DNA of 18,687 nucleotides. Source: Oscillospiraceae bacterium (GTDB lineage: Bacteria > Bacillota > Clostridia > Oscillospirales > Ruminococcaceae). The position numbers were made by a program, and so were the translations under genes. The notes under the pieces are model-generated. The model had not been told where the DNA came from. It ran no database searches and was given only the letters and a program-made list of their open reading frames with translations. The DNA lies in contig JAFQBO010000096.1 of the NCBI GenBank assembly GCA_017416665.1, positions 1-18,687 on the forward strand. The letters run 5' to 3'. Shown in pieces: positions 9,917 through 12,051 of the stretch. The stretch's first letter is position 1. Each line of letters starts with the position of its first letter.

Positions 9917-10537
9917 ATGAAATTAAAAAGATGTTTTTCTGTAATTTTATCTGCTGCGATTTCAGCAACTGTAATGACTTCAACTGTCTGCTTTGCGGCT
10001 GTTAAGGGTGATGTGACAGGTGACGGCGTTGTCAATGTAAGAGATGCGGCATATATAGCATCTGCTCTTGCCAGTAGAAAATCTGTAGACGTAATCGGTG
10101 ACTATAATGATGATGGAACTGTAAATATCCGTGATGCCGCCGCTATTGCAAAAATGCTTGGCTCTGCTTTTGCATCACAGTCGATAGCTGAAGAAATGCT
10201 TAGACTTGTGAATATCGAACGTGAAAAGGTTGGCGTAGCACCGCTTAAACTTAACTCAGCAATGAATGATGCGGCAAATCTTCGTGCAAAGGAGATAACT
10301 ACTTACTTTTCACATGATCGTCCTGACGGAACAAGCTGTTTTACGGTTTTTGATCAATTCAATATTTCATATGGCTGGTGCGGTGAAAATATTGCCGCCG
10401 GAAATTCAACCGTAGCCGCAACTATGGATCAGTGGATAAACTCTCCGGGACATTATCAGAATATGATTAGTCCGAATTATACAGAGCTTGGTGTTGGTAA
10501 TAACGGCGTTTACTGGGTACAGCTCTTTAAATCATAA
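9917..10537 (+). CDS. Secreted protein: N-terminal dockerin followed by CAP (SCP/YkwD-like) domain
   Basis: A 206-residue secreted protein. The signal peptide is residues 1-27 (KLKRC, hydrophobic core, cleavage after CFA). A complete two-repeat dockerin follows directly at about 31-82. The first calcium loop starts GDVTGDG and the second GDYNDDG, each with the loop-ending Asp followed by Ala-Ala helix starts (VRDAAYIA, IRDAAAIA). A CAP domain fills about 88-206: SHDRPDGTS with His133, CGENIAAG with Glu157, and SPGHYQNM with His179 are the usual conserved cavity residues. The dockerin should dock the protein to a cohesin-bearing scaffoldin at the cell surface; the CAP role is unknown. Dockerins usually sit at the C-terminus, so this order is unusual. 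AGGAGG lies 5 nt before the ATG. Confidence 0.92.
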   Translation: MKLKRCFSVILSAAISATVMTSTVCFAAVKGDVTGDGVVNVRDAAYIASALASRKSVDVIGDYNDDGTVNIRDAAAIAKMLGSAFASQSIAEEMLRLVNIEREKVGVAPLKLNSAMNDAANLRAKEITTYFSHDRPDGTSCFTVFDQFNISYGWCGENIAAGNSTVAATMDQWINSPGHYQNMISPNYTELGVGNNGVYWVQLFKS

Positions 10538-10548
10538 TTTATAAGAAA

Positions 10549-10572
10549 AAAAGCCACTAATGAGTGGCTTTT
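10549..10572 (+). terminator. Terminator of dockerin-CAP gene 1, left copy of a 24-bp duplication
   Basis: AAAAGCCACT pairs with AGTGGCTTTT around an AATG loop, 11 nt after the stop codon. Seven A residues precede the hairpin but only four T residues follow before the repeat element starts. The identical 24-bp sequence occurs at 10856-10879, where four A residues precede and seven T residues follow. Confidence 0.9.
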
Positions 10573-10855
10573 GAGACTGTTGAAAAACCTCAAATTTAAT
10601 TTTCGTGCCGATTAAATCGGCAGGCAAACTTGAGTACGACTAAAGTAAGGGGACGCTTTCTCTTGTAAAGCGTCCCCTCTTGAAAAACAGCCCACCGGGC
10701 TGTTTTTCAATTCACCCCTCGTAAATACGCCTCCGATGAGGTATTTCGCCGTCTGCGGGCGGCGACCAAAGGCGCTGCCTTTGGAAACCGCAAACTTTTG
10801 AAAAAGTTTGATCAAAACTTTTAGTTTTGTGAATACAGACTTTTTCGACAAACTG
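10573..10855 (+). mobile_element. Full copy of the terminator-targeting miniature element (copy 1)
   Basis: A 283-bp element whose ends are imperfect inverted repeats: GAGACTGTTGAAAAA (10573-10587) against the complement of TTTTTCGACAAACTG (10841-10855), 11 of 15 matching. Internal hairpins in order: 10606-10622 (TGCCGAT stem), 10649-10677 (GGGGACGCTTT stem), 10680-10710 (perfect 14-bp stem with a T-rich 3' arm), an imperfect stem near 10724-10746 (CCTC/GAGG), 10747-10764 (CGCCGTC stem), 10766-10784 (CCAAAGGC stem), 10791-10810 (CAAACTTTT stem) and 10814-10828. It carries no transposase. The flanking 24-bp direct repeats start and end exactly at the inverted repeats. Mobility is inferred from this architecture; the responsible transposase is not in the window. 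Confidence 0.82.
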
Positions 10856-10882
10856 AAAAGCCACTAATGAGTGGCTTTTTTT
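10856..10882 (+). terminator. Duplicated terminator hairpin, right copy
   Basis: The same stem-loop as at 10549-10572, here followed by seven T residues. Fusing the left copy's upstream A-run and this copy's downstream T-run restores a perfectly symmetric terminator with seven A and seven T, which is the expected empty site before insertion. Confidence 0.88.
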
Positions 10883-10959
10883 AAACATTATAGTTAAAAA
10901 AATACCAGTTTTATGTAGATCAGCCAAATTAAACGTTTAAAATTTGATCGATCTATTTA

Positions 10960-10988
10960 TTGACAATTAATAAAAAATATGTTATTCT
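10960..10988 (+). promoter_or_regulatory. Sigma-A-type promoter of the second dockerin-CAP gene
   Basis: Consensus -35 TTGACA (10960-10965), 17-nt spacer, -10 box TATTCT (10983-10988, 4 of 6). The start codon lies about 80 nt further on, leaving a leader of roughly 70 nt with no evident structure. The rest of 10883-10959 is AT-rich and featureless. Confidence 0.75.
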
Positions 10989-11067
10989 GTTAGTATAAAG
11001 TAGTAAATAACATCACATGTTATATGTATCGGTTTAACCACATGTTTCCGGAAGGAGTTGTTGCAGT

Positions 11068-11703
11068 ATGACTCGTAAGAAAATTTTTTCAGTATTATTA
11101 TCAGCAATATTAGTTCTTATGTGCGTGCCGTTTGGTGCGTCAGCCGTTATAAAGGGTGATGCTAACGGAGATGGTATGCTTACTATCCGTGATGCGGCAT
11201 ATATTGCAGGCAGTCTTTCAAGACGTAAAGCCATTGATGATGCAGGTGATTATAATGGTGATGGTAAGGTTGACATTCGTGACGCTTCTGCAATAGCTGC
11301 AAAGCTTGTTACACCATATGCCGATTATGCTATTGAGGTTCTTGAACTTGTAAACCAGGAAAGAGCTTCACTTGGTTTGTCTCCGCTTGTTCTTGATGTG
11401 GATCTTAACAAGGCGGCAAATGTAAGAGCAGAAGAAGCATCGGAAGTTTTCTCACATACACGTCCTGACGGAACTTCATTTGCAACAGTTCTGAAGGACT
11501 TTTCAATAAGTTATTATTGCTGTGGTGAAAATATTGCCGCAGGTTGTCCTACAGCTGAAGTCGTTGTGGCACAGTGGATAAATTCCCCTGCACATTATGA
11601 AAATATTATTGATCCGAATTATACAAAGCTTGGCGTCGGATTTTATTATGATGCAAATTCACCTTATGGATATTACTGGTCTCAGATTTTTAAATGTGAT
11701 TAA
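11068..11703 (+). CDS. Secreted protein: N-terminal dockerin followed by CAP domain (paralogue of the preceding gene)
   Basis: A 211-residue paralogue of the gene at 9917 with the same order of parts. Signal peptide residues 1-26 (TRKK, hydrophobic core, cleavage after ASA). Dockerin at about 30-81, with calcium loops GDANGDG and GDYNGDG and helices beginning IRDAAYIA and IRDASAIA. CAP domain at about 86-211, with His130 in SHTRPDGTS, Glu154 in CGENIAAG and His176 in SPAHYENI. The C-terminus differs: a longer Tyr-rich loop precedes YYWSQIFKCD, and four cysteines (151, 152, 160, 210) could form disulfides. GGAAGGAG lies 10 nt before the ATG. The stop codon directly abuts the eroded repeat copy 2, whose hairpins may supply the terminator. 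Confidence 0.92.
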   Translation: MTRKKIFSVLLSAILVLMCVPFGASAVIKGDANGDGMLTIRDAAYIAGSLSRRKAIDDAGDYNGDGKVDIRDASAIAAKLVTPYADYAIEVLELVNQERASLGLSPLVLDVDLNKAANVRAEEASEVFSHTRPDGTSFATVLKDFSISYYCCGENIAAGCPTAEVVVAQWINSPAHYENIIDPNYTKLGVGFYYDANSPYGYYWSQIFKCD

Positions 11704-12051
11704 TAAAAAAACTTAAATTTAATTATCGTGCTGATTAAATCAGCAGGCAAATATACGTACGACCAAAATAAGGGGACGCTTTTTCTTGCAAAGCGTCCCC
11801 TCTTGAAAAACAGCCCACTGGGCTGTTTTTCAATTCACCCCTCGTAAATGTACCCCAAGGGCACTTCCTTCGAGCGCGTCTCCGATGGGGATATTTCGCC
11901 GTCTGCGGACGGCGACCAAAGGCTCTGCCGAGTGCCAACGGCATGCAGAGCAGAAACCGCAAGCCTTTGCACCACAGGCATGCAAGCAAAAAGGCTTGAT
12001 CGAAACTTTTAGTTTAAAAAAAATTATTTTTAAAAACTTTTTTATAAAATG
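11704..12051 (+). mobile_element. Eroded, longer copy of the miniature element (copy 2)
   Basis: It aligns with copy 1 from just inside the left terminal repeat through the AAACTTTTAGTTT hairpin. Hairpins are at 11729-11745 (TGCTGAT stem), 11772-11800, 11803-11833 (14-bp stem), 11897-11914, a nested one at 11922-11951 and an extended one at 11960-11998. The extra length is in two inserts: 27 nt between the 14-bp stem and CGCCGTC, and enlarged loops in the last two hairpins. The left terminal repeat is lost into the end of the CAP gene. The right one is degenerate (near 12036-12051). No flanking duplication remains, which suggests an older insertion. Confidence 0.75.

Follow-up and report, generated by a model that had tools for sequence, protein, structure and literature searches.

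In the stretch of DNA analysed here, which comprises 18,687 nucleotides of contig JAFQBO010000096.1 from an Oscillospiraceae bacterium (hereafter, the window), a 283-bp miniature inverted-repeat transposable element (MITE) is enclosed by two copies of one predicted terminator hairpin. The MITE is related to the insertion sequences (ISs) of the IS1182 family, and it probably inserted at the feet of a single hairpin exposed as a cruciform, the whole hairpin being copied on both sides. Such duplication is not specific to the window site but characterizes the element and its relatives in general, and it is the most frequent outcome among the sites examined.

The element of the window and its flanking hairpins

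The 24-nt palindrome AAAAGCCACTAATGAGTGGCTTTT occurs at positions 10549–10572 and again at 10856–10879. By direct comparison, the two copies are 100% identical, and they adjoin the element (10573–10855) without a gap, one on each side. At the base composition of the window, the probability of such an exact abutting 24-bp match by chance is about 1.5e-14. The left copy is preceded by seven A residues (A7) and followed by four T residues (T4) before the element begins, and the right copy is followed by T7; beyond the 24-bp hairpin, three A-T pairs remain outside the duplication. When the element and one copy of AAAAGCCACTAATGAGTGGCTTTT are removed in silico, the flanks are joined across the remaining copy and an A7-hairpin-T7 arrangement is restored, the RNA fold of which is predicted at −16.1 kcal/mol. 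These observations bear out a first-pass annotation of this DNA, in which the direct repeat was described as a complete stem-loop lying exactly outside the element and A7-hairpin-T7 was proposed as the original state. The same annotation described the termini of the element as matching inverted repeats; such repeats are present, but they are imperfect, with matches at 11 of the 20 outer bases and, in a direct reading, at 11 of the 15 outer bases. The left terminal base of the window element is G, in place of the C found in other copies. No open reading frame in the element reaches 80 codons, and several strong hairpins are present inside it.

The function of the AAAAGCCACTAATGAGTGGCTTTT hairpin as a terminator is a prediction. 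In a consensus terminator scan of positions 10400–11000, only its left copy was flagged, on the minus strand (1 found, 0.6 expected in shuffled sequences), and the right copy was missed because A4/T4 were counted as stem. The internal hairpin at 10680–10710 is a possible two-way terminator of the MITE itself. No known RNA family was recognized in the window, where ten weak Rfam matches all fell under the gathering scores.

Hairpin duplication among copies and relatives

The window's own genome is represented by an assembly that is 64% complete and consists of 416 contigs. A search of this genome with the window element gave at least 78 matches (the best 40 of the 126 candidate places were scored), namely 40 strong ones and 38 short secondary ones; the latter mostly correspond to the internal hairpin, and many matches lie at contig ends. 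The right-end pattern of the MITE occurs 37 times in this genome and 52 times in another genome of the same genus, G009. Matches to nearly all other copies begin only at position 2 of the query, owing to the difference in the terminal base described above. The element is thus a MITE in its 283-bp length, dozens of copies, inverted-repeat ends, 24-bp target duplication, and lack of a transposase gene. It was also found that many contigs of the window's genome end within MITE copies.

Examination of the flanks in these two genomes revealed that the hairpin varies from place to place and that copies with two visible flanks mostly have one and the same hairpin on both. Among the examined loci of the genus, a hairpin adjoins 40 of the 44 left and 45 of the 49 right single MITE ends that have enough flank. 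These 85 hairpin-bearing ends provide 74 strings up to reverse complement, or about 60 hairpins when near-identical ones are merged, and the AAAAGCCACTAATGAGTGGCTTTT hairpin occurs among them only at the window's own element. The hairpin is therefore a feature of the target rather than of the element, because other copies have other hairpins. The first-pass annotation had taken recurrence of its AGTGGCT hairpin at other copies as a sign that the hairpin is part of the repeat; no such recurrence was found. As for the interior of the element, its multi-hairpin core (element positions 74–257, window 10646–10829) is also seen in elements of other genera with different outer ends. Core-only matches elsewhere often lack the outer ends, and exact flanking direct repeats of at least 14 nt are present at 4 of 30 loci. 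The core occurs also with other ends or in decayed form, as if one cargo had been joined to several end types.

The MITE family is a transposase-less relative of the IS1182-family ISs. The left end of the ISs, CAGNCTGTCGAAAAAGTC, corresponds to the right end of the MITE, and their right end, CAGNCTGTAGAAAAACC, to its left end, allowing single differences. Three autonomous relatives (L161 of Claveliimonas bilis, L152, and L178) score 408, 425.5, and 415.9 bits, respectively, with the transposase profile NF033551, the cut-off of which is 270. Autonomous relatives also show the DDE catalytic residues within a fold of the RNase H type. The first-pass annotation had left the family unassigned and proposed a search for a full-length IS with the same termini; by ends and transposase profile, the assignment can now be made to IS1182, and the search yielded these intact relatives and a decayed IS in the window's genome. 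Two fragments of the latter have NF033551 as their best model but fall short of its cut-off (101.6 and 92.1 bits). A sequence search for relatives of solved structure gave none, with one chance match (E = 0.68). Among viral contigs, 1 and 32 stretches fit the end patterns, as pattern matches only.

The frequency and the length of the duplication were surveyed on five groups of loci with element-like ends (200 loci, many of them partial), from which we retained, one per place, those with at most one end mismatch across both ends and at least 30 bases of flank. The resulting 71 distinct insertions comprise 28 MITE-sized ones (9 in the window's genome, 17 in G009, and 1 each in G006 and G007) and 43 IS-sized ones. 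The whole hairpin is duplicated at 48 of them, that is, at 22 of the 28 MITE-sized insertions and at 26 IS-sized ones. The filter left out L232–L235, among others, though hairpin duplications are present there. L228 was set aside because its record stops right next to the element; L254 and L257 represent one site, and L231 was scored by its outer left end, while its inner pair shows a 20-bp duplication.

The 48 duplications, 37 of which are perfect, are 19–39 bp long. The length equals the hairpin span in 42 cases and, over all 48, correlates with it at r = 0.989, and the foot of the hairpin lies 0 nt from the element in 44 cases and 1 nt from it in 4. Thus, the duplication tracks the hairpin span and is not of the fixed short length that classically marks DDE transposition. 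As controls, a comparable hairpin was found at 622 of 12,709 positions (4.9%) in the same loci, and a repeat of 15 or more in 1 of at most that many random flank pairs. Within the eight bases beyond the duplication, five or more T residues are found on one strand or both at 40 of the 48 sites and are absent at 8. The orientation of the element relative to the T tract is the same in 10 cases and opposite in 11, with T tracts on both sides in 19 and on neither in 8; no bias is seen in these counts, for which four untyped elements and four plasmid elements were set by hand.

Empty sites were also compared with occupied ones. In the Streptococcus phage Javan90, a 26-bp hairpin occurs once; the otherwise matching Javan87 has it twice at this place, on the two sides of a 1538-bp IS, and the left flank, one hairpin, and the right flank of the Javan87 site match Javan90 exactly. 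Likewise, the linear plasmid pELF_AA55 has a single hairpin where pELF_AA94 has a 1536-bp IS and the 25-bp hairpin twice; the plasmids AP026619 and CP040238 also have a single hairpin at this site, with 150-base flanks that do not match exactly. For the MITE, two hairpins flank an insertion in G009 located between metK and a gene for a small acidic protein, and G003 carries at this locus the acidic-protein gene, one hairpin, and, as judged by eye, the same riboswitch-like leader, with no MITE. This downstream leader is kept only in G003; L301–L305 have a single hairpin directly after the stop codon with other neighbours, L299, L306, and the broken copy in the window's genome are less clear, and no match to the locus was found in G004. 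Together with the diversity of hairpins at other copies, the single hairpins at empty sites support the earlier proposal of a target-site duplication of a long structured target; empty sites devoid of the hairpin, which that annotation had named as contrary evidence, were not found.

The phenomenon is not confined to the host genus. Of 18 assessable sites in plasmid and phage records with a name, 13 show an exact duplication of the hairpin: all seven of L229–L235 (L231 by its inner end), L253 and L255 among five distinct ISEfa7-like sites, and L309, L311, L312, and L313 among six further sites, L311 being an element of a B. subtilis plasmid. It was not shown at L252, L254, L256, L310, and L314. 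Different hairpins lie on the two sides at L252 and L314, and in L252 the left-flank gene runs into the element, which suggests later rearrangement. Hosts in which the duplication occurs include Clostridia and Bacilli as well as one fusobacterium (Cetobacterium) and one gammaproteobacterium (Providencia). At L231 (positions 650–710 of an Enterococcus plasmid), a further inverted ISEfa7 end precedes the duplicated hairpin, as if two copies had used one hairpin in opposite orientations and one had later been lost.

Recognition of the target

Most DDE transposases produce target duplications of a fixed length, a fixed complex giving a fixed stagger. The enzyme that moves the present elements likely recognizes the shape of its target DNA and not the sequence, because dozens of relatives in other bacteria sit between two copies of quite different hairpins. 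A putative IS1182-type DDE transposase would move the MITE in trans, and its target would be a hairpin extruded from both strands, that is, a cruciform. At the four-way junction, each of the two transposon 3′ ends would be linked to one stem-loop, at its 5′ foot, and gap repair would then copy the whole stem-loop on both sides. Since the junction unites both joining points at any stem length, it would explain the range of 19–39 bp, and a mobile junction would allow the joining point to lie a little within the longest stem, which is the situation in the window. We slightly favour the wider view that a large part of the IS1182 family and its MITEs transposes into cruciform junctions, reading them by shape and copying structures of any length. 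The scheme corresponds to 'pathway b' in Fig. 13 of PMC5678879, where, in the accessible part of that paper, it is drawn for IS1272 without data.

Several observations weigh against the cruciform reading. That the events are insertions rather than excisions would follow from the pattern of relatives. An empty site orthologous to the window insertion was not found in the 11 genomes of the genus; in these, the closest relative of the gene at 9917 outside its own genome (G009:C4) is 56% identical, has a different hairpin downstream, and may be nearer to the paralogue at 11068. An intact transposase with these ends was found neither in the window's genome nor in G009, both of which are incomplete. 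Different hairpins lie on the two sides at 17 of the 71 insertions (3 MITE-sized and 14 IS-sized), and the hairpin is one-sided at 2, by the threshold of the script, and lacking at 4. One to six Watson-Crick pairs extend past the duplication at 26 of the 48 sites, where 17.9 are expected by chance; thus, cutting does not always occur where the longest possible stem has its foot. In 37 of the 48, the duplication has A...T as its outermost bases, so that sequence may matter somewhat at the cut.

The insertions with mismatched hairpins include L170, L186, L209, L213, L220, L126, L131, L065, and L069. Recombination between copies, misassembly, or another transposition route is possible at such sites. 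When eight hairpins from four MITE loci were sought in all examined loci as marks of recombination partners, only the source loci in overlapping records matched, and one of these hairpins, sought in the whole of G009, occurred a single time. Most of the IS loci come from metagenome assemblies, in which repeats are error-prone, and many of the 17 mismatches may be explained in this way.

The transposase might instead bind the inverted repeat as a duplex, one subunit per arm, and make staggered cuts at the outer edges with no extrusion. The A...T preference just described, as a possible sequence preference at the cut, and the symmetry of orientation are in keeping with such binding, yet the joining points would lie about two to nearly four helical turns apart while the duplication still matches the hairpin span in 42 of the 48 cases, a fixed complex normally gives a fixed stagger, and no obvious sequence is common to the arms; we consider this explanation unlikely, though deserving attention. 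It is also rather improbable that the target is a single-stranded or RNA-associated hairpin, either on the lagging strand or at an active terminator with a paused RNA polymerase and an R-loop. The T tracts at 40 of the 48 sites make most hairpins terminator-like, as this explanation would have it, but the tract is absent at 8 sites, neither orientation is preferred (10 versus 11), and terminators may just be the commonest strong hairpins outside genes.

The two remaining explanations concern the fate and the origin of the hairpins. IS1272, an IS1182 relative, replaces its hairpin without duplication (PMC5678879, PMC4923244), and by this precedent the target hairpin would have been removed and the neighbouring hairpins would be secondary. 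However, two copies are kept at 48 of the 71 sites, and empty sites have one hairpin where occupied sites have two; such replacement is very improbable here and was rejected for these elements. That the hairpins travel as part of the mobile element might be suggested by the terminators upstream of ISBma2-type transposases, which Naville and Gautheret read as 5′ terminators intrinsic to the IS (PMC2965389). This was likewise rejected and is the least credible explanation of all, in view of the about 60 hairpins at 85 MITE ends and the single hairpin already present at empty sites.

The cruciform reading can be set beside what is known of the family. Long variable direct repeats are reportedly listed for IS1182 in ISfinder. 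ISEfa7 and related IS1182 members of Enterococcus, Streptococcus, and Bacillus resemble the window family in that most of their ends start with CAGNCTG, but they are full-length ISs with a transposase, and the subterminal sequence is GTAGACAAA in ISEfa7 versus GTAGAAAAA in the window family. IS1272 and TnSha1 of Staphylococcus have a transposase of the same family and target hairpins, often terminators, with no sequence consensus, and IS1272 then deletes or replaces the hairpin (PMC5678879, PMC4923244). The authors of PMC5678879 favour pathway a for IS1272, in which the hairpin is lost; in the accessible parts of these papers, IS1272 makes no target duplication, unlike the window MITE with its whole duplicated hairpin. 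ISCbo5 and ISBma2-like elements of C. botulinum group III and C. novyi, also of the IS1182 family, encode a transposase, unlike the MITE. ISCbo5 is located at terminator hairpins (PMC3098183), and the accessible part of that account gives no duplication lengths, empty-site comparison, or mechanism. Short non-autonomous IS1182 relatives, like the window MITE, are represented by the 160- and 169-bp elements paired with ISMac2 in Methanosarcina acetivorans (PMC3852290); their duplications appear to be 4 and 0 bp, if the column is read correctly, and no hairpin duplication is reported in the accessible part of that paper. Whole-hairpin duplication as the usual IS1182 outcome was not reported in the open-licence literature, covered mostly by titles and abstract openings. 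In the sources so covered, hairpin targeting by IS1182 members was already known, and whole-hairpin duplication was only a hypothetical pathway. What is new here is duplicating, hairpin-targeted IS1182 transposition that is measured, accompanied by empty sites, and extended to a high-copy MITE.

Features of the window and consequences for termination

The features of the window are listed in Table 1. The element sits between the paralogous genes 9917–10537 and 11068–11703, which are 55% identical and look like a tandem duplication; we take both to encode secreted-protein-like products with dockerin-like and CAP-like parts. No adjacent pair of this kind was listed in the other genomes of the genus at E up to 1e-20. 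The second MITE copy and its hairpin are placed beyond the minus-strand gene 165–1490. The third copy lies between two genes labelled by eye, the second CAP-domain-like gene and an antiporter-like gene, and a duplicated hairpin cannot be recognized at it.

Table 1 Positions of the mobile-element features in the window
Feature	Positions	Strand	Remarks
Second MITE copy, right part only, cut by the contig start	1–91		Right end at 75–91
Hairpin AAACGCCACAAAATTTTCTGTGGCGTTT adjoining the second MITE copy	92–119
Duplicated terminator-like hairpin, left copy (target-site duplication)	10549–10572		Same as 10856–10879; stem of 10 bp and loop of 4 nt; T4 left before the element
283-bp MITE related to IS1182-family ISs	10573–10855	+	Many copies in the window's genome and in G009; termini match those of IS1182 ISs
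Left terminal repeat (consensus CAGNCTGTAGAAAAA), which matches the parent IS at its right end	10573–10587	+	Begins with G in the window element
Internal hairpin of the MITE core	10648–10678
Internal hairpin of the MITE core, T5 on each strand in the stem	10680–10710		Absent from the terminator-like matches of the consensus scan
Right terminal repeat (minus-strand sequence CAGTTTGTCGAAAAAGT), which matches the parent IS at its left end	10839–10855	−
Duplicated terminator-like hairpin, right copy	10856–10879		Full T7 tract extends to 10882
Third, decayed MITE copy with degenerate ends	11706–12051		Approximate boundaries, by eye against the window element

The first-pass annotation held that each side of the element retains a terminator. 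A hairpin is indeed retained on both sides, but the T tract is complete only at the right copy, since the left one keeps four T residues before the element. In the direction of any transcript, the gene-side hairpin likely loses some T residues, and the hairpin beyond the element likely keeps them. A hairpin on either side would shield the element from outside transcription. The placement of the MITE beyond gene ends, in likely stop signals that are copied by the insertion, may explain how dozens of copies are carried with little damage.

For the IS1182 family, the present observations supply data for the duplication pathway that had only been drawn as a possibility for IS1272. They also offer another reading of the terminators upstream of IS1182-type transposases, which may be host hairpins gained at insertion, as is suggested for ISBma2 by analogy. 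Because the duplication length tracks the target hairpin across Clostridia, Bacilli, a fusobacterium, and a gammaproteobacterium, the old question of whether chromosomal hairpins are extruded in living cells becomes countable. If the cruciform reading is true, the terminators around these elements would be acquired afresh from the host at each jump, and each insertion would be a natural record of a hairpin extruded in a living cell.
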